This document shows, piece by piece, positions 34,652 to 51,553 of a stretch of DNA of 64,000 bases. The notes under the pieces were generated by a model. It was given only the letters and a program-made list of their open reading frames with translations, was not told the DNA's origin and ran no database searches. The number at the start of each line of letters is the position of its first letter. Position 1 is the first letter of the stretch. Both the position numbers and the translations under genes were made by a program. This stretch comes from Desulfurella acetivorans A63 (GTDB lineage Bacteria; Campylobacterota_A; Desulfurellia; Desulfurellales; Desulfurellaceae), in the NCBI GenBank assembly GCA_000517565.1, contig CP007051.1:1139039-1203038 (forward strand). Reading direction: 5' to 3'.

Positions 34652-35815
34652 TTAATATTGTATCCTATACTACTTAATAGAGAATTTATAGACATACCTA
34701 TCTGTTTTTCTATACGTTCTTTTGATTTCAAAGCACATTTCAGCTTATTTTCTATAGAACACTTAATCTCTGCATCTTTTTCATATTTTTCTATTTTTAA
34801 ATGATATCTTTTTCTATATCTATAAAACTCTCCTCTAAAGTATATTTATCTGCTATGAAAACAATTTCTGCAGGAGTAATCGGATCACTGTCTTTTATAC
34901 ACATATCCATATGGTTGCGTATCGCCTCAGCTACCTCAATAAAACCAAGATCATTCAAAATTTTGGCACCTTTTACATCATGATTTTCTTCATAACGCAC
35001 AATATCATGAAGCAATCCAGCGGCCTTAACTATATCTGGATTGATATTTAAACCTTTTTCATTTAAACTTTTTGCTATAGTTTCTGCAAGCAAAGCAACT
35101 AATTTTGAGTGAGTTTTTATTTTATGGCTCACTGAGTAATATTGTAAAAGTGCAAAACATTCTTTTAGGTTTGGAACATTCAGATAATTTATAGAATTTT
35201 TTATTATTTCGTAATCTTGAGGTGTATCTACATCCAAGAGCATATATTCGTTAGGTGTAAATACTTCAACAATATGAGTCTTATAGTTTTCTAAAAAACC
35301 TTGTAATCCATTTTTGCCATCCCATGAAAGCAGCTTTTCTGCAACACTGGAAGGAAAAAGCGGAGGATGACCTCTTTGATTTTTAAAAGTAGGTATAATA
35401 ATTCGAGATCTGTCGTTAAGCCAAGTTTCTAAAACTAGTTTCAAAGTACAATTACGTATTAAGGGAATATCAACTGGCAGAACAAAAAAAGCATCACACA
35501 TAGAAGCTATATGTTTTACTCCAAGACATACAGAGGAAAACATTCCTCTTGATGGATCAGGGTTGTGAATTTCCATTACTTGTTCGCTAGAAATGACTCT
35601 ATGTATTTCTTCAGTATTATAACCTGTAACTACAACTATTTTATCAATACCAAAATCATGAAAAGATTTATTTCTTCCTCTATAAAAGTTTTGTTATTTA
35701 TAGGCAGCAGAGCTTTATTTTTGCCCATTCTAGATGATTGACCTGCTGCTAGTATTATCGCTCCAATATTTGAGCTTTTTATGTTTTTTTGATCAAATAA
35801 AGTTAAATCATTCAT
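34648..35815 (-). pseudogene. MobA-like nucleotidyltransferase/HD-domain fusion, two frameshifts
   Basis: Reading across three frames gives one gene. From 35815: MNDLTLFDQKN, then AIILAAGQSSRMGKNKALL, the MobA/MocA nucleotide-binding start. A shift near 35675 leads to FHDFGIDKIVVVTGYNT and the rest of the transferase. An HD domain follows (AAGLLHDIVRYEENHD, AEIVFIADKY). A second shift near 34805, in a run of A, gives an extra tail, HLKIEKYEKDAEIKC up to GYNIK, ending at 34648. Adding one A at each site gives 389 codons. Members of this type mature molybdenum hydroxylases. It is either a recent pseudogene or has two sequencing errors. Confidence 0.75.
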
Positions 35816-35844: not shown

Positions 35845-36661
35845 TTATCCTCCAATATTAGAGAATGGTTGGTGTATGTTGTTGTCTAAAAGTTTGTGTT
35901 GACGAGGTTTTATTTTAATTGATTGAATTAAAGTAAAAACTATGTATGTAGTGTTTTCTAACATATAATACTTGCTTAGCACATTTGTTTTATAATATGT
36001 TGTGGGCTTTAGAATATGGTGTTTTTCGATGATAGTTTTTACTTCATCAATTGAAACAAAGTTTTGCTTAAAGCCTTTGTTATAATCCGAAGGCATATAC
36101 TCAATAAAGCGTATTTTGTAATTTCTAGTTAATGCAAATTTTAAAATGTTTTCAATCCATTCCAGGTTATAGTTTCGCATAACAACGGTATTAATCTTAG
36201 TGTTTGCAAATCTTACTGCATCTAGCGCGTCAAAACTCCTTGTAACATCTTTGATGTTGTCAAATTTTGTAATTTGTTTGAACTTTTGCGGGTCGAGAGT
36301 ATCAAGACTTACTGTAACTCTAGAAAGTCCTGTGTTTTTTAAATGATTTACATAAAGAGTTAGTAAACTACCATTGGTTGTTAACGAAATATCTTTAAAA
36401 CCTATTTTAGATAACATTTCAACTAATTTAAAAATGTGTTTTCTTATTAGCGGTTCGCCTCCGGTTAGTTTTATTTTTTTTACTCCTAGATCATAAGATG
36501 CTTTCGCACAAACTGCAATCTCTTCGTAAGTCAATATCTCACTCATAAAATGGAACACCTTATGATGGCATACAATACAAGCATCTATAATTACATCTAT
36601 TAGTTACAGATGATCTTAAGTAATCAATCTTTCTGTCAAATGGGTCTATAAGTTGTGTCAT
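35845..36661 (-). pseudogene. moaA: MoaA (GTP 3',8-cyclase) pseudogene
   Basis: The start at 36661 reads [20 protein letters not shown] and the radical-SAM triad CNYRCLYC, then meets a stop and a frame change near 36580. The body from 36558 is intact (IKLTGGEPLIRKHIFKLVEM, LSRVTVSLDTLD, KINTVVMRNYN). The C-terminal part that should hold the three cysteines of the second [4Fe-4S] cluster is missing: the text jumps from YMLENTTYIV to KPRQHKLLDNN and the usual end NIGG. Both defects make MoaA activity very unlikely, so another moaA is expected in the genome. Confidence 0.8.
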
Positions 36662-38089: not shown

Positions 38090-39274
38090 CTATATAAAAA
38101 AGAATTCGAGCATCTCACCTTTTTTTGCAATTTCTACTTCTTTTGGTATAGCTAAAAACGCATTTGCTTTAGATAGGGCACTAAAGTCACCAGAACCATT
38201 GTAATTTATCTTATAGGCTACATAACCGTCTTGACAAAAAGCTACTTTTGTTGGCAAAAAATGCATTCTATCCGATTTTTTTTTGTAATCAAAATCAATC
38301 TTGCACTTTAGAAAATCCACATCAAAATCTTTGCATTTTAACATCTTTGAAATAATATTTCCTACAAACAACCTAAAGACACTAAATGTTGATACCGGGT
38401 TTCCTGGTGAACCAATAATAAAACAATTGTCTTTTTTTGCTATAATTGTTGGTCTTCCTGGTTTCATATCAATGGTTCTAATTAGTATTTTGGCGCCTAT
38501 GGCGTTTAGCGCTTCCTGGGTATAATCCTTATCGCCAAATGAAGATCCGCCTGTTATTATTACGATATCACAGTTTAAAACAGCACTATGCAGTGTATGT
38601 TCGATCAATTTTGGGTCATCTAAAATACGTCCATAATCAATCGCTTCTTGATTAAACTGTCTTATCTGGGCAATTAAACTGTAGCGCGAGGTGTCAACAA
38701 CGCTTGTTGGTTTTTGTGGCTCACCAATATCAACTAATTCATCACCTGTTGTAATAACGCCAATATTGAGCTTTCTGTAAACTTTTACGCTTTTATAGCC
38801 AAGTTGTGCAAGTAAATTGATCATATTTGGTTTTATTAGAGTACCTTCTTTTAAAACAAGCTCATTCTTTTTTAAATCCTCTCCAAGGTAAGCTATATTT
38901 GAACCTTTTTTTGGTGGTTTTATAAATTCAATAAAACCGTCTTTTTCTATTACAGCTTCAAATTCTACCACACTATCGCAATCATCTGGCACTTTAGCGC
39001 CTGTCATTATGCGCACGCAATACCCTTTTTGGGTCTTAATGTTTGTTTCTTGGCCTGCATAAATTACATCTTGGATTTTAAGCCTTTTAGGCAAATCATC
39101 TTCAAATCTGAAAGCAAAACCGTCCATTGTGGCTTTGTTAAATGGGGGAAAATCTATATTTGATATAATATCAATTGCCAGTACTCTGTTTATAGACTCA
39201 ATTAAATCAACCTGTTGGGTTTGAGCTACAAGCTCTGGCTGAATTGATTGGATTGCTTCATAAAATGTGGTCAT
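38090..39274 (-). CDS. moeA: MoeA, molybdopterin molybdenum/tungsten transferase
   Basis: Inserts the metal into adenylylated molybdopterin; 394 aa. Signatures: PFNKATMDGFAFR, RIMTGAKVPDDCDSVV, VITTGDELVDIGEPQKP and TGGSSFGDKDY, followed by the catalytic PGRPTIIAKKDNCFIIGSPG region. It lies 7 bp after the FAD gene of an AOR cluster, so it may supply tungsten or molybdenum to that enzyme. Confidence 0.93.
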   Translation of the reverse strand: MTTFYEAIQSIQPELVAQTQQVDLIESINRVLAIDIISNIDFPPFNKATMDGFAFRFEDDLPKRLKIQDVIYAGQETNIKTQKGYCVRIMTGAKVPDDCDSVVEFEAVIEKDGFIEFIKPPKKGSNIAYLGEDLKKNELVLKEGTLIKPNMINLLAQLGYKSVKVYRKLNIGVITTGDELVDIGEPQKPTSVVDTSRYSLIAQIRQFNQEAIDYGRILDDPKLIEHTLHSAVLNCDIVIITGGSSFGDKDYTQEALNAIGAKILIRTIDMKPGRPTIIAKKDNCFIIGSPGNPVSTFSVFRLFVGNIISKMLKCKDFDVDFLKCKIDFDYKKKSDRMHFLPTKVAFCQDGYVAYKINYNGSGDFSALSKANAFLAIPKEVEIAKKGEMLEFFFI

Positions 39275-39280
39275 GAGAAC

Positions 39281-40501
39281 CTACCTATAGTTAAGCTTAC
39301 TTAAAAATTTTGGATAGTTCATAAATTGATTTAGATTATGAAAAATATCTATTTTGGTGCGTGTTTTTACTAGATTATAGTAAAGTCCTGCATCGTTTGT
39401 GTCTTTAATAAGTGTTGCTCCAATTATAAAACCAGATTCATCAAAAAAGAGTTTTCTATAAAAAAACCTGCCTGGATCGTAAAACTCTATATTTTGTGCA
39501 TCGTCTTTATTGTAACCAACAACAGCAACATCTATACCAAAAACCTCTGTTGTGTTGTTTTTTATACTACCGTCGTAGGCTACATTGATACCTAAAATAT
39601 TTTTTGCTGCAATAATTGCTTGCTCAACTGCCGTTATCCAGTTACCTTGAATGACGCTTTTTCCTGTGACAAAATCTCTACCTTGAGCACAATCGCCAGC
39701 TGCATAAACATCCTGAGCGCTTGTTTTGCAAAAATCGTCTATTATGATTCCTTTGTCTGTTTCTATCTCGCCTTTTAGAAAATCTACATTAGGCACAACA
39801 CCTTTTCCTACAAGGAGTAAATCACAATCTATTTGATGATTGGATTTTAAGCTAAGTTTTATTGAGCCATCCAAATTATCTTTTATGCTTTCTACATCAT
39901 CATGTTTGTAGATAAATACATTTTTGTCTTTAAATATTTCTTCTAAGATATATGAAGCGCTTTTATCCACCACCTGAGAAAAAATTCTATCAGATGAAAC
40001 TATTATGTGTTTTTTAACATCATCTTTTAAATGAGATAGCGTTGGTAAACTAACAAGACCTGCACCAAGTGCCGCAACAGATTTTGCATTTGAAAATAAC
40101 TTGCGCAATTTATCTGCATCGGATATATTTCTCAAAGTTAACACCTTTTCATGCTTTATATGCGACTGTTTTGCAAAAGCACCTACTGCAATAAGCAAAT
40201 ACCTGTATGTATATGTATCAAACTGCGTATAGATTGTTTTTTTATTTGTATCAACTCTAAATACTTCATCTCCTAAATAAGCGTCAATGCCATTTTTTGC
40301 ATAAAAGCTTTTATCTACAATGTAGAGATGATCTTTATCTGTATCAAATCCTGCATAGTAAGGTGTTAGGACCCTTGAGTATGCGCTCTCAGCTTCTTTA
40401 TCAAATACAGCAACAGACATTTTCTTATCAAAAGCTCTTATAGTCTTTATTGCACTTAAACCCGCTGCTGAGTTGCCTATTATAATTAAATCATAGTGCA
40501 T
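39281..40501 (-). CDS. aorC: FAD/NAD-dependent oxidoreductase, AorC-like
   Basis: A 406-aa pyridine-nucleotide-disulfide-type reductase: FAD motif IIGNSAAGLSAIKTI at the N-terminus, an NAD-binding site at AALGAGLVSLPTL, and the second FAD motif VYAAGDCAQG. In Aromatoleum the tungsten aldehyde oxidoreductase has three subunits, with an FAD subunit that passes electrons to NAD or ferredoxin. The gene order here (Fe-S, AOR, FAD) is the same. It may also recycle electrons from acids to aldehydes. Confidence 0.8.
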   Translation of the reverse strand: MHYDLIIIGNSAAGLSAIKTIRAFDKKMSVAVFDKEAESAYSRVLTPYYAGFDTDKDHLYIVDKSFYAKNGIDAYLGDEVFRVDTNKKTIYTQFDTYTYRYLLIAVGAFAKQSHIKHEKVLTLRNISDADKLRKLFSNAKSVAALGAGLVSLPTLSHLKDDVKKHIIVSSDRIFSQVVDKSASYILEEIFKDKNVFIYKHDDVESIKDNLDGSIKLSLKSNHQIDCDLLLVGKGVVPNVDFLKGEIETDKGIIIDDFCKTSAQDVYAAGDCAQGRDFVTGKSVIQGNWITAVEQAIIAAKNILGINVAYDGSIKNNTTEVFGIDVAVVGYNKDDAQNIEFYDPGRFFYRKLFFDESGFIIGATLIKDTNDAGLYYNLVKTRTKIDIFHNLNQFMNYPKFLSKLNYR

Positions 40502-40557
40502 TTATCCCTCACTTTGGTTTTAAGCGCAAAGCTTTAAAAGACTTTGCGCTTAAAATT

Positions 40558-42366
40558 TTATGCAATATTTAGCTCTTTTAGCTTTTCTTGCGTTGGCACT
40601 CCGTCAGATCCCCAACCACGCTCTTTGTAGTACTCAGGCAAAAGCTCAGATAACTTTGCAACCATGCCTTTTGCCGGGCCTTCTTTTACTGGCTCTTCAA
40701 GCAAGCGTTTTGGAAGTGTGTCCTGAGATGGATCAATACCAGCTTTGAGGTTAAATAAGCGCTCTATATTATATATGCGCTCTCCTGCTTTCATCATATC
40801 GTTTTGCGTGTAATTCAAGCCAGTAGCTGCAGTAAATAGGTTTGTTATGTGGTTTATGTTTATTGCAAATGTGGTAAACAAACACATACCCACAGAGTCC
40901 ACCACTGCTGTCACATCCTGGAAAGTTTTTGTCCAGAAAGCTTTATTTTCTGTTGTATAAGGATCAAGTTTTTCCGGTACACCCATAATTTCTGGTGAAA
41001 TCATATAGCCTCTAACATGGCAGGCACCACGGTTTGAAGTAGCATACTCCAAAGCCATACCTTGAGCTACCCTACCATCGTATGCTGGAAATTCCTGTTT
41101 TTTTACTGTCATGGAAAACTCTGGGTGTCCATACAAACTTGCAAGTCTGTATGAGCCAAGCGCAAGCTTATCCCCAAATCCTTCTCTCTTGCCAGTTAGC
41201 TCAATCATTTTAACCATTGCATCAGCATCTCCAAACTTTAGAGGCATTCCTATATCGGCTTGAGGAATTATGCCTTTTTCAAACATCTCCATAGCACATG
41301 CTACAGTAGCGCCTGCACTTATTGGGTCCATACCATACTCGTTACATAAATAATTTGCTTTTGTAATTGCACTTAAATCTGATACGCCGCAATCTGAACC
41401 CAAAGCAAATATTGTTTCGTACTCTGGACCTTCACCTGTTTGAGCCTTGTACCTAGGGTCAACTAATTTTGTAACCCTTGCACATCCTATCATGCAGGAC
41501 ATACAGGCTTTATTTCTAACAAGCAAGGTGCTAGCAAGTGTTTCACCAGATATTTTTTCTGCATCTTCAAACACATCTGCCTGGAAGTTTCTTGTTGGAA
41601 GCAAGCCATTTTGGTTTATAACATTCACAAGCACAGCTGTGCCATATGCAGGAAGCCCAGCTGAAGTTACAGGCGATTCTTTTATTGCCCTGAAAGCATC
41701 TGTTGCCGCTTCTCTAAACTTCACTCTATCTGCTACCTTAACACCCAATGTGCCCCTTACAGCTATAGCTTTTAGATTCTTTGAGCCCATTACAGCACCA
41801 ACACCGCTTCTGCCTGCTGCCCTGTGCTTATCATTCATAATAGCTGCGAATAATACCTGCTTTTCACCTGCTGGACCAATAGAAGCAATCTTTGCATCTC
41901 TATGGAAAGTTGAATGTAGATAATCTTCTGCTTCATCAGAGGTTTTGCCCCATATTTTAGAAGCATCTTTTATGGCTACCTGGTTGTTATAGATTGTAAC
42001 ATAAACCGGGTGAGCTGCTTTGCCTTCTATTATTACAAGGTCAATACCCGCATACTTTAGTTCAGCTGGGAAATAACCACCAGAATTTGAACAAGCAATC
42101 GTGCCTGTTAGAGGAGATTTTGTAATCATCATATAGCGACCATTTGCTGCACCGTATGTACCAGTCAACGGTCCTGGGGCAAGTATCAGCTTATTATCTT
42201 CAGAAAATGGGTCAACCGTTGGGTCTACTTCTTCCATGAAATACTTTGAACCAAGACCCCTGCCGCCTAAATACAGCTTGGCCCACTCGTAGTTTAAAGG
42301 CTCAAAAGCATAAGTCATTTTAGAGAGGTTTATCCTTAAGACATTTCCTATCCATCCACCAAACAT
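40558..42366 (-). CDS. aorB: Tungsten/molybdenum aldehyde:ferredoxin oxidoreductase (AOR), catalytic subunit
   Basis: A 602-aa AOR-family protein with the pterin-binding N-terminal domain ([57 protein letters not shown]). The single [4Fe-4S] cluster is held by CMSCMIGC near residue 290 and a later Cys in [13 protein letters not shown]. It oxidises aldehydes to acids with a tungsten bis-pterin. It overlaps nothing but is 1 bp from the Fe-S subunit gene. Confidence 0.93.
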
Positions 42367-42367
42367 A

Positions 42368-42847
42368 CTACACCTCCAATCGTCCTTCTTTTACAACATT
42401 TACATAGTTTAGAATCTTTGTCCTAAGAGGTGCATCCTCTTCCTCAAATGTTAGACAACCTGTTGGGCAAAATGCGACACACTCCGGGTAATCGCCGCCA
42501 CAAAGGTTACATTTATCCGCTTTTTGTTTGTACTCCACATACTTTATCATACCAAACGGACAAGCACTTACGCATGTTCTACAACCTACACATTTTTCTT
42601 CAATTACCTCTACCACACCTGTGTCTGGGTGCTTTACTATAGCACCAGATGGACATGCTCTAGCACACCATGGATCATCACATTGCTGGCATGTAACCGT
42701 AACAAACGAAGCTTCTTCCAAAAATACTTCATTGTAGATGCGAGACAAACTTGGGGCAAACATACCATGATGTTTAAAAGAACAGGCAAGCTCGCAGGTT
42801 TTACAACCAATACACTTTGAAGGTTCGATTCTAATTCGCTTTGACAT
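42368..42847 (-). CDS. aorA: Polyferredoxin-type Fe-S subunit, AorA-like
   Basis: A 159-aa protein with four cysteine sets for [4Fe-4S] clusters: [37 protein letters not shown] and CNLCGG..CVAFCP. It would wire electrons from the AOR subunit to the FAD subunit. GGGAGG lies seven bases before the ATG and no gene precedes it for 60 bp, so the AOR operon starts here. Confidence 0.88.
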
Positions 42848-42908: not shown

Positions 42909-43712
42909 TTATATAAATCCCTTTTTTTGATTTGAAACACATTTATTGTTTGCTATAGTTTCGGCTATTATAGATATTGCTATTTCAAAAGGAGTTTCAG
43001 CTTCTATGTCCAACCCGATTGGAGCAAAAATTTTATCTAAAAAACCATTATCTAAACCAAGCTCCTTGGCTTTAGTAAAACACTTTTCCTTCCTCTTTAG
43101 ACTCCCTATCATGCCAATATAACCAAATTTTATACCTTTGTTGAATAAAGATTTAAGTATATACGGATCGTCTTTGCCACCAGCTGTAACTAAAACAATA
43201 TAATCTCCTTCTTTCAAAGGCATTTCTGAAATGCTTTCTTTAAATTTCTTATTAAAAACCGCAGCTTTTGGAAAATTTTCGGTATTTGCTAGCTCAGGTC
43301 TTTCATCGCAAACAATTATATTAAATGTGTCGTCGAGGCATATTATTTCATAAAGCTTTTTTGCTATGTGACCTGCACCAAATATAACATAGTTTGGCTT
43401 TTCTCCAATATATTCTATAAATATCTGTATAGACCCTCCACATACCATACCAAGAGAACTTTCACTGTCTTCTTTTAATACATATGTTTTAAGTAAACTT
43501 TTATGAGTTTTGAATATATTTTTAGCTTCATCAATAACATCTTTTTCTACTAATCCTCCTCCAATGGTTCCATATATGGTGCCGTTTTTGTCTATTATCA
43601 TTTTAAAACCAATTTTACCAGAAGTTGAAGATTCAGCGTTGACAACAGTTGCTATGACGAATTCTTTACCATTTTCGATAAATTCGGCTATTCGTTTATA
43701 AATTTGTTGCAT
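42909..43712 (-). CDS. xdhC: XdhC-family molybdenum hydroxylase maturation factor
   Basis: Binds molybdopterin and supports sulfuration and insertion into xanthine-dehydrogenase-family enzymes; 267 aa. The XdhC N-terminal part has FVIATVVNAESSTSGKIGF and GTIGGGLVEKDVIDEA, with MVCGGSIQIFIE. The Rossmann part has YVIFGAGHIAKKL and FGYIGMIGSLKRK, with the end APIGLDIEAETPFEIAISI. The ATG at 43712 has GGAG nine bases upstream; an ATG at 43727 lacks a site. Its presence fits the XO-family pair at 44-48 kb. Confidence 0.88.
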   Translation of the reverse strand: MQQIYKRIAEFIENGKEFVIATVVNAESSTSGKIGFKMIIDKNGTIYGTIGGGLVEKDVIDEAKNIFKTHKSLLKTYVLKEDSESSLGMVCGGSIQIFIEYIGEKPNYVIFGAGHIAKKLYEIICLDDTFNIIVCDERPELANTENFPKAAVFNKKFKESISEMPLKEGDYIVLVTAGGKDDPYILKSLFNKGIKFGYIGMIGSLKRKEKCFTKAKELGLDNGFLDKIFAPIGLDIEAETPFEIAISIIAETIANNKCVSNQKKGFI

Positions 43713-43778
43713 TGCTAAATTCTCCATTGGCCATTTTTAAAATCTCCTTTTTTGTCAGCTTATATTCACTTATTCAAC

Positions 43779-43942
43779 TCACACATGTTTCTTGCCTATA
43801 GATAGAAATTTTTCTATGTCGCTTTGATCTATTATATGTCCTTTCTTAAAAAAAGCGGACCCTTTTTAACGCCTAGAATAATCTCAGTTACATCTGCACC
43901 TAAAGCCTTACCTACAGCATTTTCCGTTTTAACTTTATTCAT
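43779..43942 (-). pseudogene. N-terminal remnant of a molybdopterin-binding (MoCF) protein
   Basis: From an ATG at 43942 reading MNKVKTENAVGKALGADVTE, IILGVKKGPLF, then after a shift in a T run KKGHIIDQSDIEKFLSIGKK and a stop at 43779. This matches the start of MoeA/CinA-like molybdopterin-binding proteins ('KTEDAVG..L..DIT.I.PG..KG..F.KGHII...DI..LL..GK'), but nearly 300 residues are missing. No other feature is seen in 43713-43987. Confidence 0.6.
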
Positions 43943-44030: not shown

Positions 44031-45037
44031 TTACAAAGATAAAAGAGTCCTTTTTACAACCACTTTAGACAATTTCACTTTATAAGCATTTTTGCTTAGA
44101 GGTGTTGCTCCTTGAACAGATTCTTCACATGCTTTTTTAGCAACGTCAGGAGTAATTTTTTGCCTTTTAAAAAGTTTTCTGCCTGTGTAGCCCTAATAGG
44201 TTTTGGGTCAACAGATCCAAGAAATATTCTAACGTCTTCAATGGTATCACTTGACATGTTAGCACAAATTGCTGAAGATACAACAGATTCATCGATAAAT
44301 TTCCTAAAGCTTATCCTCATGAAAGCTTGTTTTATTTTTTTATCAGGCTTGGGTATCTGAATTTCTTTTACTATCTCACCTTCGGCAAGAATTGTATTGC
44401 TAGTCACACCCATCTTATCTTGGTAGAATTCTTCAATTGGAATAGTTCTTTGTGTTGTTACAATTTTAGCATTAAGAGCTGAAAGCGCAACAGCTATATT
44501 TGAGATATTAACAGCGTATCCCATATCTGATCCTCCAAATATGCTCAGGTATTGATTCATTCCTTCATTTGCAATATAACTAGGATCAGAAATCAATTCT
44601 CTTGCTATTGGGTTTGGGTTCCACATATACCAGGAGTATGGTTCTTTACATACTTCTCCACCTATGGTCATTAGGTTTCTATGTTGTGGAGGAGCAGATG
44701 TCAAAGCCGCTTCAGTTAGCGCCTTGTAGGTACTATCCACTATTTTGTTTTCCAAAATTTCGGAGAATGTTGTTAGGGCGCCTATTTTAAGGAAGCCAGA
44801 TTCTTCTTTAATGTATTTTAGCTCTTTAATGCCTTTAAGGTTAATGATTTTTTCAGGGTACACAGGAAATATCTTCAGTCTGAGGGCGGGAATAATATTT
44901 GTTCCTCCAGCCATTAATTTAGCTGACCCTTTATACTTTTGTAACAAGTCTACAGCTTCCTCAATGGATTTTGGTATAAGGTAATCAAAATTGCTTAATT
45001 TATCACTAAAATAATAAGGTTTGACTGTCATACTCAT
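44031..45037 (-). CDS. FAD-binding subunit of xanthine-dehydrogenase-family enzyme, frameshifted near the end
   Basis: CoxM-type FAD subunit: AGGTNIIPALRLKIFP, LKIGALTTFSEILE, and QHRNLMTIGGEVCKEP for flavin binding. One frame ends at 44096, but restoring one A in the A6 run at 44156-44161 continues the protein as KKITPDVAKKACEES, then SKNAYKVKLSKVVVK, to a stop at 44031. This is the normal C-terminus of the family (335 aa). The region after TIGG resembles the insertion of 4-hydroxybenzoyl-CoA reductase beta subunits, but its cluster cysteines are absent. It follows the Mo-subunit gene by 1 bp. Confidence 0.8.
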
Positions 45038-45038
45038 T

Positions 45039-47879
45039 TTACCTTACCTCCTTTTTATCTAATGCATCAAGAAGTCTAATTGCTGTAAAGGGGCTTTCGT
45101 AGTTATCTGGTGCTATACCTAAAGCATTATGGACTGCATTGCCTATGGGTGATAATGCAGCAGTAGAAGTATCTTCTCCTACTCCAACAATTCCATAAGC
45201 TCCTGGACCTTTACCTACTTCAATAACCCGTGCGACTATCTTATCTGGAACTTCTCCTATTGTTGGGACTTTGTAATCTTTTAAATTTGTAGTCAGTAAT
45301 ACACCTGTTTTTGGATCCCATACTTCCTCTTCAAACAATGTTCTGCCTATAGGCATAAATAAACCGCCATATATTTGACCGGCTATACCACTTGGGTACA
45401 TTGCAGTTCCAACGTCATGAACATGAACCGTTTTTTTTATCTCTGTAAGGCCGGTTTCCGGGTCTACTTCTACTTCTATAAAGTGAGCTTGAAAACATTC
45501 ATATTTTCTCTTTCTATGGTGCCCATAGGCGCAATCATAAGAACCCAGAGGTCCGTAGTCACATTGAGACATTGGGTAAGTTGTTACGCTTACAAAAACG
45601 TCATATGGAGCTATAGCTTCGGATATCGTAAGAAATTCTTTCGGGTTGTGTTTTGGAAATACTTTTCCGTCTTTAAGTTCTAAAACTTCAGGGGAAAGCA
45701 TCATTTTCTTTGATGCTCTATCTATTATTATGCTTTTAGCTTTTTGACAAGCATTCCAAACAGCATCTCCATCAGCTGCTGTAGTCCAAGAACCTCCAAT
45801 GTCACCTAAAAGTGCTCCTACATCGTTAGTTTGGCTAGCAGCTGCAGTAAATCCAACCTTCTCTGGGTCTATACCCAAAACCTCTGCTGGTATGTAACGA
45901 ATTGCCGGATGAATACCTACACCTGTATCAGGAGTCATTCCTATGATTGATACCGATCCGTCTTCCATTACTCTTAATCCTACAGCAGCATGAGCTCCTG
46001 CTCCCCATTCCCAGTATCCAGAAAAACCAATACCATGGTATTTCCCATTAGATAACAATTTATCTCCTGGTTTATGCCACTTTTTATCCCATTCTATTTC
46101 TTTTTTCCCTATTTCTATTGCTTTTTTAAGACTAGGTACTCCTGATTCACATGCATTTTTCAATGTTACTTCTGTTGGGTCAAGATTTAAATCCACAGCC
46201 ACACGATTCATAATGGCACCGTATATCCATGCCGTACCATCCTGTTCACATCTAGCCCACCACATAGGTGACTTATTAGTCCAAACTATATGCTGATCAT
46301 GAAATAAATTGGGTATTTTAGTAAATATCTCAAAATATCGCATTGGCATATTCCAACCCTTAGGAAACCAGAAAGTTGCTCCTCCACCATCATCTCCACC
46401 ATTATCTACTATGCTTCTTAGATGTATAGCGGTTATAGTACCATCATTTTTTGCACCTACTTTGTAGTATGCAACATGAACTGGATAATGGTAGTCAAAG
46501 TAGTATCTTCGATTTCTACTGGCTATTTGAACTGGTCTTTGCTGATCTTTCGAAATTATAGCTGCAGCAATTTGATCTCTTGTGCCTGATCTTTCAGTCA
46601 TCAAATCACCACCACAAGATCCCCCAACATAAGCCACTTTTAAATGAAGATTTGATTTTGGTATACCAAGAGCACTTACTATTTTCCCTTCTCGCCATCT
46701 TGGATCTTGAGCTTTGATCCATATATGCAAGTGGTCACCTTCCCACCATGCTGTTGCAGTTCCAATATCATCACAAGAATGTAGCTTACTCCTATAAACA
46801 ATCTTGCCTTCAATAATGCGATCCGCCTCTTTAAAACCTGCTTCTATATCACCTAATGACCATGTATCGGATATAAGTTCATTGCTATTAGAATTTATTT
46901 CTGGATGAATTTTTGGAGCATCAGGCTTTAAGGCATCTTCTGGGTCCAATACAAATGGCAACTCTTCCCATTCTACATCTAGTGCATTTAAAGCTTTATC
47001 GCACAATTCTTCAGTTTCAGCTACAACTATAACTCCAGCTTCATCTCCCTCAAACTTTGGTTGGTTGGTGATAATTGGATAATAATTGTTCCATCCAACT
47101 TTAGGCAAATCTTTAAATAAAGGATGTTCCCATGTATATACCTCAAAGACTCCAGGGATTTCTTTTGCTTTGCTTGCATCAACCTTTTTAACAACTGCAT
47201 GAGCATAAGGAGATATCAGCCACTTAGCATATAGCATATTTGGAAGAATCATATCGCGCGAGTATTTTGCTTGGCCAGTAGCTTTCGGATATGCCTGATC
47301 GGCTCTAGTCAAAATATTGGTTCCGATAAATTGATAGGCGCACTCATCTCTTTTTTCAATTTTGAAATCAACTATTTCTTCTGCTTTTTTTATTTCTTTT
47401 TCAAGCTTTTTGGGATCAGATTTCTCGCACATTTTCGCTGCTTTTAAAACAGCTACAATATCTTTTGGGTAGAGTCCTTCTCTTCCAAGAACCCCAGATA
47501 AAGCCTCTTTAACGTCTTCTAAAGTGGGATTTGGATTTTTATCCAACAAAGCTTTGGCGGCAACAATTTTGCCGGGAATATCATAGCCACCTTGTATGTG
47601 TTCTTCTTCTACAAAAGCTTTAACAAGAGGGTGTTTTTTCGCTGCAATTCCTTCAATGGTTTCTATGTTGCTTCCATCAGCATCCATAGCTAATACAAAA
47701 GACGCTGGCACTACCTTACCATCCATTATAACCGTATCCCAGCCACCTTCTCCTAAACTTATTCCATCTTTAGTTCCAGTTAAACCAAGCTTATTTCTTA
47801 GTACATCAAGAAGTGTATCGTTGGGCTGAACAACGATGGTTTCTTCTTTACTGTTTACAGTAAATTTAATAATGTTCAT
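45039..47879 (-). CDS. XO-family molybdenum subunit fused to a cysteine-free ferredoxin-like domain
   Basis: A 946-aa protein. Residues 1-150 follow the [2Fe-2S] subunit of CO dehydrogenase/xanthine dehydrogenase enzymes closely (TLLDVLRNKLGLTGTKDG, ETIEGIA, AAKALLDKNPNPT, VKEALSG). Yet every cluster cysteine is replaced: Ile40, Gly45, Asp48, Ser60, Gly97, Asp100, Gly132, Glu134. Residues from about 188 form the molybdopterin subunit (ILTRADQAYPKATGQAKYSR, VAYVGGSCGGDLM) and keep the active-site Glu near the end (GIVGVGEDTSTAALSP). GGAGG precedes the ATG. The fold is kept while the electron wire is gone, so a non-redox or internally balanced reaction is possible. The substrate is unknown. Confidence 0.85.
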   Translation of the reverse strand: MNIIKFTVNSKEETIVVQPNDTLLDVLRNKLGLTGTKDGISLGEGGWDTVIMDGKVVPASFVLAMDADGSNIETIEGIAAKKHPLVKAFVEEEHIQGGYDIPGKIVAAKALLDKNPNPTLEDVKEALSGVLGREGLYPKDIVAVLKAAKMCEKSDPKKLEKEIKKAEEIVDFKIEKRDECAYQFIGTNILTRADQAYPKATGQAKYSRDMILPNMLYAKWLISPYAHAVVKKVDASKAKEIPGVFEVYTWEHPLFKDLPKVGWNNYYPIITNQPKFEGDEAGVIVVAETEELCDKALNALDVEWEELPFVLDPEDALKPDAPKIHPEINSNSNELISDTWSLGDIEAGFKEADRIIEGKIVYRSKLHSCDDIGTATAWWEGDHLHIWIKAQDPRWREGKIVSALGIPKSNLHLKVAYVGGSCGGDLMTERSGTRDQIAAAIISKDQQRPVQIASRNRRYYFDYHYPVHVAYYKVGAKNDGTITAIHLRSIVDNGGDDGGGATFWFPKGWNMPMRYFEIFTKIPNLFHDQHIVWTNKSPMWWARCEQDGTAWIYGAIMNRVAVDLNLDPTEVTLKNACESGVPSLKKAIEIGKKEIEWDKKWHKPGDKLLSNGKYHGIGFSGYWEWGAGAHAAVGLRVMEDGSVSIIGMTPDTGVGIHPAIRYIPAEVLGIDPEKVGFTAAASQTNDVGALLGDIGGSWTTAADGDAVWNACQKAKSIIIDRASKKMMLSPEVLELKDGKVFPKHNPKEFLTISEAIAPYDVFVSVTTYPMSQCDYGPLGSYDCAYGHHRKRKYECFQAHFIEVEVDPETGLTEIKKTVHVHDVGTAMYPSGIAGQIYGGLFMPIGRTLFEEEVWDPKTGVLLTTNLKDYKVPTIGEVPDKIVARVIEVGKGPGAYGIVGVGEDTSTAALSPIGNAVHNALGIAPDNYESPFTAIRLLDALDKKEVR

Positions 47880-47996: not shown

Positions 47997-48037
47997 ATTA
48001 ACCAAAAGTATAAAAATTATATATACTTTTGGTTAAT
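47997..48037. promoter_or_regulatory. Large inverted repeat upstream of the Mo-enzyme operon
   Basis: In the 550-bp gap 47880-48430, ATTAACCAAAAGTATA (47997-48012) and TATACTTTTGGTTAAT (48022-48037) form a perfect 16-bp inverted repeat 118 bp before the ATG. Related half motifs (TATACT, AAGTATA) follow at 48045-48058. It is a candidate binding site for the LuxR-type regulator encoded just upstream, or a hairpin. Nothing coding was seen in the gap. Confidence 0.5.
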
Positions 48038-48430: not shown

Positions 48431-49057
48431 TTAAATATCTACTAGACCTCTTTTTAAAGATTCTCGAACAATTAATGTTCTAGAGGTTACTCCTAGTTTT
48501 TCCATAATCTTGTGAACATGCATTTTAACTGTACTTTCACTAATAAAGAGCTTTTCAGAAATTTCATTATTTGATAATCCTTCAAATATCAATTTTACAA
48601 TTTGCTGCTCTCTTTTAGACAGAATATTTTTTTTATTAGGTTTTCTGATTTCTTCTAAAACTGTGTCTATAAGATTGAAATCTATTGCATTTTTCCCTTC
48701 ATGAATTAATCTGATTTGTCTTAATAATTCTTCTATGTTTGAATCTTTTAGTACATATCCCTTTGCTCCAGCACGAATAGCACTTATCATATCTTTTTCA
48801 CTATGAAAAGCAGTAATCATTATGACTTTTAATTGAGGATAGTTTGTTAATATTTCTTCACAAACATCAATTCCGTTTGAATCAGGTAACTTAATATCCA
48901 TAAGCAATATATCTGGAAGGTTTTTCTTTAGAACTTTTATAGTTTCATTTTCATTTGAGGCTTCACCAATAACACGTATATCTGATTCTAACTCAATTAC
49001 TGCTTTTAAACCTTGCCTAAACATTATATGGTCATCAACAATAACAATCTTTATCAT
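48431..49057 (-). CDS. NarL/LuxR-family response regulator
   Basis: A 208-aa two-component regulator: receiver domain (VIVDDHIMFRQGLKAVIE, phosphorylated Asp in LLMDIKLPDSNG, VIMITAFHSEKD) and a C-terminal LuxR helix-turn-helix (LSKREQQIVKLIFEGLSNNE, STVKMHVHKIMEKL). It overlaps the kinase gene by 4 bp and lies upstream of the Mo-enzyme pair, which it probably controls. Confidence 0.92.
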   Translation of the reverse strand: MIKIVIVDDHIMFRQGLKAVIELESDIRVIGEASNENETIKVLKKNLPDILLMDIKLPDSNGIDVCEEILTNYPQLKVIMITAFHSEKDMISAIRAGAKGYVLKDSNIEELLRQIRLIHEGKNAIDFNLIDTVLEEIRKPNKKNILSKREQQIVKLIFEGLSNNEISEKLFISESTVKMHVHKIMEKLGVTSRTLIVRESLKRGLVDI

Positions 49058-50390
49058 GTTTTATTATCATCGGGAATAGTGAAAATTATTTTTGTTCCTT
49101 TTGGCTCTAAATTGATAATTTCTATATTGCCGTTTATTTCTTTTATTTTTTTAAACATTATTTTTAATCCAAAATTTTTTCCCGAAGTCATTTTTTTTAT
49201 ATTATTTCTTTTAATGCCCTTTCCATTATCAGATATTTCTATTATAGTTTTCTCCTTAAAAAGCTTAACACTTATTGTTGCCTCGGTTGCTTGAGCGTGT
49301 TTAATAATATTGTGTAAAGATTCATTAATTATAGTGTATATAACTTTGTTTTGTTGGATCGTATACCTCTTAAGTTCTCCATGCACAAAAACATTTATTT
49401 TTATGTCTGTAAGGTTCTCAAATTCTTTAACTAAATCATGTACTAAGTCTAAAAAAGATCTTTCAGGGTTAAAAGACAAATCAAAAATCGTATCTCTAAT
49501 TTGAGAAACCGCTTTTTTCGACAAGTCTTTAGTGATTTTAATCTGTTTATAGACATCCGATTCTTCTGGTATTTTCCTTAAACACCATTCCATATTTAAA
49601 CCTATAGTTAAAAATACTTGAGCAATAGTATCATGCAAATCTAATGCTATTCTATTTCTTTCTTCACTAATAATTTGATTTTTCTGTGCTTCAGTTATTT
49701 TCGCATTAGCTTTTTCTAATTCGCAAATTTTTATTTCCAGTTCTTTTTTTCTTTCTTCTAGAATTTTTCTCAGATATTCTCTTTCATTTATATATCTACA
49801 GTTCTCGATAGACACTACAAACAAGTTTGACAAAGTTTGCAATAAATGATGATCAATATCTGAAAAATAACTCGTTTTATAAATTTTAAAACATATTGTT
49901 CCAATAAAATGCCCACCTTTTCTAATAGGCAAACATACAGTATTAAATATATCCGAATAATCTCTATTAATGTATAATTCAGATTTATCTGCAATATAAT
50001 CAAGAATTGTTTGAAAATTTTTTGGTATTGAAGAATAATACAAAATACGTTTAGAATTATATATTATAAAGGGAGATATAGCTTTGTAAATTTCATTATT
50101 CAGAAAGAAAATTACATATTTGACTTTAAATACACTAATGATTATTTTTGAAATTCCTATAAAAACTTCTTCTAACTCTTTAGTTACACTATTTATTATT
50201 TGAGAAACATTTTCAAGCGAATAAAATACTTTTTCTAGTTGTAAATTTTTATTTTTTACTTCTTGAAGTCTTTTTTTTAACTCTGCATAATAAGATTTTT
50301 TAAAACCACTTGCACCTGTTATAACATCAATCAGTTCATTCTTTCTAATGTAATAATTTTGTCTATCTCGCTGTCTACATCAAAATTCAT
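49054..50390 (-). CDS. NarX/DegS-type histidine kinase with GAF domain, N-terminal frameshift
   Basis: The kinase core is intact: HisKA_3 with SEERNRIALDLHDTIAQVF and HATPase with IEISDNGKGIKRNNI and GLKIMFKKI. A GAF-like sensor lies before a coiled coil. The frame is open up to about 50345 without an ATG. An ATG at 50390 gives MNFDVDSEIDKIITLER and then meets a stop, whereas adding one A near 50341 joins it to NELIDVITGASGFKKSYYAE and the rest. A cut at the internal TTG (50043) would lose half of the sensor. No membrane segment is visible, so it senses a cytoplasmic signal. Confidence 0.75.
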
Positions 50391-50401
50391 AGATAATAAA
50401 T

Positions 50402-51553
50402 TTACAAAGCCTTTTGAAAAATATTTTGTATATCCTGTTCATTAGCATCTCGTGGATTAGTTAAAATGCAAAAGTCCGATAAAGCATTTTTGCTAATGTG
50501 AGGTATATTGCTTTCGTTTACGCCCGAATAACTCAGTCCTTCTTCAATGCCTAAATCAACACACAACTCTTTGACAAGTCTAACAACCATATATGAAAGT
50601 TCTCTTGTGTTTGATGCTTTTATATGTTCATCAGCAACATTAGCTATATTCACAAACTTTTCTGTACATGCTATTAAATTGAATTCTAAAACATAAGGTA
50701 GCAAAATTGCATCAATTTCGCCATGCGGCTGATCCAAAAGACCACCAACTTGATGAGCCATTGCATGAAGCAATCCTAAACCAGCATTGGAAAAAGCAAT
50801 TCCGGCTTGAAGGCTTGCTAAGGCCATTTTCTCTTTAGCGTATAAATCAGTTTTGTTTGCTACCGATCGTCTTAAGTATTTAAAAATTATTTTTATTGCA
50901 TTTAATGCCATTGTGTTAGTAAATTCATTGGCAGAAACTGATAAATATGATTCTATTGCATGACTAAGAGCATCAATACCGGTATTTGCAGTTAATTTAG
51001 GATCTTTGGTTGTTAACAAAAAAGGATCAATTATGGATATGTCTGGAACCAGTGACCTATCAATTAAAGACATTTTGATTTTACGCTTAGTGTCAGTTAC
51101 GATTGCAAATTGAGATACATCTGCACCAGTTCCTGCAGTTGTAGGTATCATAATCATTGGTGGAAGTGGGTTCCGAATTTTATTTGCTCCTTCATAGTCA
51201 TTTATAAGTCCACCATTTGTAGCTATAATTGCTATTGCTTTAGCCGCATCAATAGAACTCCCTCCACCAATTCCAATAATTGAATCACATTTTGAACTCA
51301 AATAAAGTTTTACACCTTGGTTTATTTCAAAATCTTTTGGGTTTTGAGTTATTTTGCTAAATACTTTATACTCTAAGTTTGCATTATTTAGTATCTTTGA
51401 TAACTTTTCAAGCCAGCCTGCTTTAATAATACCTTCGTCTGTTACAATAAATGGCTTTTCTCCGCCAAGTTGGGTTAAACTTTTTCCAGCTTTATTTATT
51501 GAATTTACTCCAAAAATAATTTCTGGTATTAAAATTTTTGCAATATCACCCAC
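50402..51553 (-). CDS. Iron-containing (type III) alcohol dehydrogenase
   Basis: A 383-aa NAD(P)-dependent alcohol dehydrogenase. The nucleotide site is GIGGGSSIDAAKAIAI, TTAGTGADVSQFAIV follows, and the metal ligands are the Asp and His in GIDALSHAIESYLS and the His residues in LLHAMAHQVGGLLDQPHGEI. It interconverts an alcohol and an aldehyde. Together with the AOR set and aldehyde dehydrogenase it would handle fermentation aldehydes. It precedes the kinase gene by 11 bp. Confidence 0.9.
   Translation of the reverse strand: MGDIAKILIPEIIFGVNSINKAGKSLTQLGGEKPFIVTDEGIIKAGWLEKLSKILNNANLEYKVFSKITQNPKDFEINQGVKLYLSSKCDSIIGIGGGSSIDAAKAIAIIATNGGLINDYEGANKIRNPLPPMIMIPTTAGTGADVSQFAIVTDTKRKIKMSLIDRSLVPDISIIDPFLLTTKDPKLTANTGIDALSHAIESYLSVSANEFTNTMALNAIKIIFKYLRRSVANKTDLYAKEKMALASLQAGIAFSNAGLGLLHAMAHQVGGLLDQPHGEIDAILLPYVLEFNLIACTEKFVNIANVADEHIKASNTRELSYMVVRLVKELCVDLGIEEGLSYSGVNESNIPHISKNALSDFCILTNPRDANEQDIQNIFQKAL

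Follow-up and report, generated by a model that had tools for sequence, protein, structure and literature searches.

Known enzymes of the xanthine oxidase family, molybdenum enzymes whose oxidised substrates include aldehydes and purines, move electrons through iron-sulfur clusters, and the locus described here raises the question of what such an enzyme might still do once its cluster ligands have been replaced and the surrounding folds kept. The locus lies in a stretch of 64,000 nucleotides (the window, that is, all the DNA analysed here) from the genome of Desulfurella acetivorans A63 (1.82 Mb, two contigs), where the minus strand carries, in this order, genes for a molybdenum subunit, a FAD subunit, XdhC, AorA, AorB, AorC and MoeA. 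Two [2Fe-2S] clusters are the minimal feature of the xanthine oxidase family (PMC9370002), and the part of the literature covered by our search describes no cluster-free member, as an earlier note on this DNA had supposed.

The fused subunit and its missing cluster ligands

The molybdenum subunit (45039..47879, minus strand) fuses a [2Fe-2S]-type domain (residues 1-155), here cluster-free, to molybdopterin-binding domains (residues about 195-946), an assignment based on the open reading frame, Pfam, alignment and a structural model. The reading frame of 946 codons (2.84 kb) has no internal stop and begins with an ATG just after a strong ribosome-binding site (AGAAGGAGG). Fer2_2 scores 55 bits (cut-off 30.3), and Ald_Xan_dh_C, MoCoBD_1 and MoCoBD_2 all exceed their Pfam cut-offs; Fer2, the first-cluster domain, was not found by Pfam in the 946-residue protein. 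The AlphaFold model is confident overall (mean pLDDT 81) and weaker where the cluster loops used to be; away from these loops, the N-terminal domain reaches a pLDDT of at least about 90. Foldseek matches the model to the Desulfovibrio aldehyde oxidoreductases (1dgj, 1sij), 4-hydroxybenzoyl-CoA reductase and CO dehydrogenase; Fer2_2, the model and Foldseek thus agree on the fold of the [2Fe-2S]-binding domain of the family. The G+C content of the gene (38.6%) is above that of the window (31.8%), yet its GC3 (0.24) and codon usage are host-like, and composition was dropped as evidence of recent horizontal transfer. Upstream of the gene, an inverted repeat read by eye (47998-48036; 15-base arms TTAACCAAAAGTATA and TATACTTTTGGTTAA, 9-base gap) might serve the MadR-like regulator described below as its operator.

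The earlier note had reported that all eight expected cysteines of this domain are something else and had proposed an alignment with homologues as the check. That alignment, over 45 domains from about 40 other genomes, yields the same eight residues: Ile40 (codon 47760-47762), Gly45 (47745-47747), Asp48 (47736-47738), Ser60 (47700-47702), Gly97 (47589-47591), Asp100 (47580-47582), Gly132 (47484-47486) and Glu134 (47478-47480), all on the minus strand within 47478..47762. The homologues read CCCCCCCC at these columns, with cysteine in every aligned case but one serine (in L051; the last position of L011 is unaligned), and the eight conserved cysteines of the family are thus represented 0/8 times. 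The further claim that the domain is conserved and has not decayed at random was borne out on the columns conserved to 90% or more across 39 homologous domains: 17 of the 18 non-cysteine columns are kept and none of the eight cysteine columns (Fisher test, p = 5.8e-6). In a tree built without the cysteine columns, the branch of the N-terminal domain (1.29) lies within the range of cluster-bearing domains (median 0.95, maximum 2.24), and the cysteine content of the molybdenum part is 1.17% against a homologue mean of 1.19%, that is, normal outside the cluster sites. Taken together, the ordinary branch, the kept columns and the normal cysteine content elsewhere indicate that the domain stayed under normal constraint and lost precisely its cluster ligands.

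The FAD-binding subunit (44096..45037, minus strand; 313 residues as read) is of the PaoB/HcrB type by profile, alignment and model, with FAD_binding_5 at 128 bits. Its absence of extra-cluster cysteines is more marked than the earlier note had stated, since the [4Fe-4S] loop is kept and all four of its cysteine columns are replaced (S135, A145, Y154, G173). The model folds except at this former cluster loop, and its best Foldseek match is 4-hydroxybenzoyl-CoA reductase. The subunit keeps 65% of its conserved columns, the fewest among all rows, and its C-terminus is frameshifted: the original end (44034..44159, minus strand) now lies in another frame, beyond an A-run near 44149-44164. Judged from the sequence, with 12 of 12 ligands gone in two subunits, no iron-sulfur wire can run from molybdenum to FAD. 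Starting from cysteine codons, the replacements require a minimum of 15 base changes in the molybdenum subunit and 7 in the FAD subunit, 22 over 12 codons, which rules out both sequencing error and recent decay.

The molybdenum pocket, the nearest relative and the neighbourhood

In the pocket of the molybdenum domain, Arg543, the glycine loops and the catalytic glutamate of the G(x)GE motif, Glu902, are all kept. The domain retains 74% of the conserved columns, the lowest value of all rows (median 93%), followed by its nearest relative, L044 (83%), and shows unusual replacements in conserved pocket motifs, Cys422 for phenylalanine and Asp371 for glutamate. Nine of the changed columns can be read in L044, and six of these are changed there too, so that a good part of the divergence belongs to the clade as a whole and does not reflect decay. 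The two proteins form a fully supported clade with a long stem in the molybdenum-domain tree, are about 37-40% identical in both subunits and have the motif WWxRCEQ in common. The L044 contig starts within the molybdenum domain, which places the N-terminal part off the contig; this part was not found in the L044 genome or in three relatives. In the FAD subunit of L044, all four [4Fe-4S] cysteines are retained, so that the inserted four-cysteine loop typical of PaoB/HcrB has 4/4 cysteines there and 0/4 in the window. The ancestor of the clade therefore very probably had clusters, and their loss would have occurred on the window's own line.

Eleven cysteines are left in the molybdenum subunit, three of which (C369, C422 and C544) align to conserved pocket motifs; it is conceivable that they form a new metal or thiol site. 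The idea that Cys544 makes a copper site of the CO dehydrogenase kind is unsupported, the same residue being carried by the unrelated L040 and L055. In these two proteins, the Arg-Cys loop is present and leucine replaces the catalytic glutamate (GAKEAGLF), and they are possibly another branch with altered chemistry.

The genes around the pair are a mixture of intact and breaking ones. The XdhC-family maturation factor, recognized by profile (42909..43727, minus strand), is intact and has its MVCGG cysteine (C96), and the tungsten-type aldehyde oxidoreductase set that follows, with moeA, aorC, aorB and aorA (38090..42847, minus strand), is likewise intact. Between the FAD gene and xdhC, about 54 codons of a molybdopterin-binding protein gene remain (43782..43942, minus strand), frameshifted and with the rest deleted; this remnant resembles a Peptoclostridium molybdopterin-binding protein. 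Eight to nine kilobases downstream lie a DVU_1551-type NTP transferase gene, akin to molybdopterin cytidylyltransferases, with two frameshifts, near both ends (34702..35815, minus strand), and a moaA copy that is out of frame at the N-terminus and cut short at the C-terminus (35845..36661, minus strand). One branch of molybdenum cofactor synthesis has possibly been lost from this genome, as the state of these genes would suggest. Upstream of the operon, a MadR/MadS-like response regulator and histidine kinase (48431..50043, minus strand) possibly serve as its regulator; together with an ErcA-like iron alcohol dehydrogenase (48431-51553 for the whole group, minus strand), they suggest that the operon is regulated by alcohols or aldehydes.

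These neighbours alter the picture drawn by the earlier note: its conserved domain and lost wire stand, but it overlooked the breaking accessory genes and the frameshifted C-terminus of the FAD subunit. With frameshifted and truncated neighbours, the enzyme pair may be on its way out today. The breaks look recent, because the genes, though broken, are still good matches to their own families, whereas the cysteine losses must be older in view of the many substitutions needed. Two phases thus call for explanation: an old one, in which the wire was selectively removed, and a recent one, in which the helper genes erode.

The pair is sparsely distributed. Whole-genome searches of two congeneric genomes returned no match to the molybdenum subunit; the allele with normal cysteines that the earlier note had named as a refutation is thus absent from both, neither having any copy of the gene. 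Both congeners have aorABC-moeA (96% and 80% DNA identity), and the stretch from 42.9 to 51.8 kb was not found in either, save for small pieces near its ends; one has hydrogenase-maturation genes upstream of aorA, and the contig of the other ends there. The window genome itself contains no second member of the family in a genome search. Among about 450 distinct genomes searched, with large phyla thinly covered and four whole-genome searches falling on very small phyla or re-sampling the same genomes, L044 was the one close relative, and no second cluster-free homologue was found. A scan of genome contigs with peptide patterns, which were poor ones, returned one distant actinobacterial gene, plasmid searches gave matches at about 33% identity only, and a viral collection held no match to the molybdenum subunit.

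Explanations for a complex without a wire

We tentatively prefer the reading that the locus encodes a cluster-free molybdenum enzyme whose chemistry takes place at the molybdenum domain alone, direct use of the molybdenum site included. Its observed basis is the loss of 12 ligands with the folds and the pocket residues kept; that molybdenum is still bound and catalytic, and for which type of reaction, we infer from the sequences. The enzyme would have originated as a PaoABC-like molybdenum aldehyde oxidoreductase with two [2Fe-2S] clusters, molybdenum cofactor, FAD and an extra [4Fe-4S] cluster, from which the internal electron wire was removed as selection held the fold. A molybdenum centre deprived of clusters would be unable to feed FAD, and since an electron pair on the molybdenum would have no route to the flavin, the remaining function would most likely be chemistry at the molybdenum domain, with Glu902 as the base. 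The simplest such chemistry would be a redox-neutral reaction, for instance the addition of water or a hydrolytic transfer, and less simply a direct exchange of electrons with an external partner; both the cluster domain and the FAD subunit would persist as structural parts, the latter now eroding. We favour a cluster-free enzyme because the long reading frame and XdhC are intact and the pocket residues have been kept. The breaking accessory genes, the 74% of conserved columns in the molybdenum domain, Cys422 and Asp371, and the failure to find a second cluster-free homologue count against it. Redox-neutral catalysis is unproven, although the conserved Glu902 and Arg543 and the intact XdhC would fit it, and the narrower claim that the protein is a redox-neutral member with neither iron-sulfur clusters nor wire, and hence the first cluster-free branch of non-oxidoreductases in the family, is in our judgement doubtful.

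A serious contender is that the protein is a former enzyme which no longer carries the molybdenum cofactor and has either a non-catalytic role or entered an early stage of loss, with accessory genes and FAD subunit decaying around it. This account draws support from the breaks in the cytidylyltransferase-type gene and in the C-terminus of the FAD subunit, from the frameshifted or truncated moaA copy and molybdopterin-binding gene, from the share of conserved columns, which in both the molybdenum domain and the FAD subunit is lower than in any other row, and from the absence of the gene from the two congeners searched. Neutral decay, however, would not remove 12 ligands and keep the rest of the domain, and a 2.84-kb reading frame that is intact beside several frameshifted neighbours points to selection now or until recently. 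XdhC, too, is intact with its conserved cysteine, and the characterised member of that family inserts and sulfurates the cofactor (PMC2997495). By analogy, the molybdenum centre might instead trade electrons directly with an external partner, such as the ferredoxin AorA or the flavoprotein AorC, which we consider unlikely. The DMSO-reductase-type enzymes DorA and TorA are cluster-free and exchange electrons directly in this way, Glu902 and Arg543 are kept, and a four-cluster ferredoxin-like AorA and the AorC flavoprotein are encoded directly downstream; but AorA, AorB and AorC are a set of their own, present in congeners that have no xanthine-oxidase-type pair, and in known members of the family the molybdenum is deep and electrons exit via the clusters.

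Two further accounts would do away with the loss itself. Four of the eight replacements (Asp48, Ser60, Asp100 and Glu134) offer oxygen side chains that might still bind clusters, but with these no cluster could have more than two ligands (Asp48 and Ser60; Asp100 and Glu134) where a [2Fe-2S] cluster needs four; as Ile40, Gly45, Gly97 and Gly132 are unable to bind iron and the [4Fe-4S] loop now holds Ser, Ala, Tyr and Gly, ligation of this kind is very improbable. An assembly or sequencing artefact, which the several regional frameshifts at or near homopolymer runs might bring to mind, is scarcely credible: the 12 ligand codons of the two genes are at least 22 substitutions away from cysteine, and no insertion or deletion accounts for them.

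If the preferred cluster-free enzyme is still active, it would represent a new way of working for the xanthine oxidase family: a natural member with the whole wire gone from two subunits would test the chemistry of the molybdenum centre on its own, and would offer a ready-made protein for molybdenum spectroscopy, in which the metal is otherwise masked by absorption from clusters and flavin. If it is a former enzyme, the locus would record how such a complex comes apart step by step, with the ligands lost before the accessory genes and the flavin subunit.

Comparison with known systems

The periplasmic aldehyde oxidoreductase PaoABC and the Methylobacillus aldehyde oxidase (5y6q, 5g5g) resemble the window complex in their set of subunits and in the long loop of the FAD subunit, and 5y6q_B is the best solved match of the FAD subunit of L044. 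The window complex differs from PaoABC in having no cluster cysteines in the small domain or the loop, in the fusion of the small and molybdenum parts, and in that no close cysteine-bearing relative is known. 4-Hydroxybenzoyl-CoA reductase (HcrABC, 1rm6) is the best solved sequence match of the molybdenum part (185 bits) and has the same extra [4Fe-4S] loop in its FAD subunit, whereas the window complex has none of the 12 cluster cysteines and scores far below the cut-offs for that enzyme (TIGR03194, 278 vs 994.55 bits; TIGR03195, 116.7 vs 404.55 bits). The Desulfovibrio MOP (1sij, 1dgj) is likewise a fused [2Fe-2S] and molybdenum chain, with an NTP transferase of the DVU_1551 type and a factor related to XdhC again nearby; it has two clusters where the window protein has none, and the NTP transferase of the window is broken. 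In CO dehydrogenase, the copper-binding cysteine of the AYxCSFR loop of CoxL aligns with Cys544, but the window protein reads WWARCEQ and has only the cysteine position in common with Form I; the motif is WW(A/F)RCEQ, the clusters are absent and Cox accessory genes were not seen. The one parallel found in the literature searched for a redox-neutral molybdenum hydroxylase, likened here by description only, is the Michael hydratase MhyADH of Alicycliphilus, for which hydration of enones was claimed and whose authors themselves later doubted the hydratase activity (PMC4052635).
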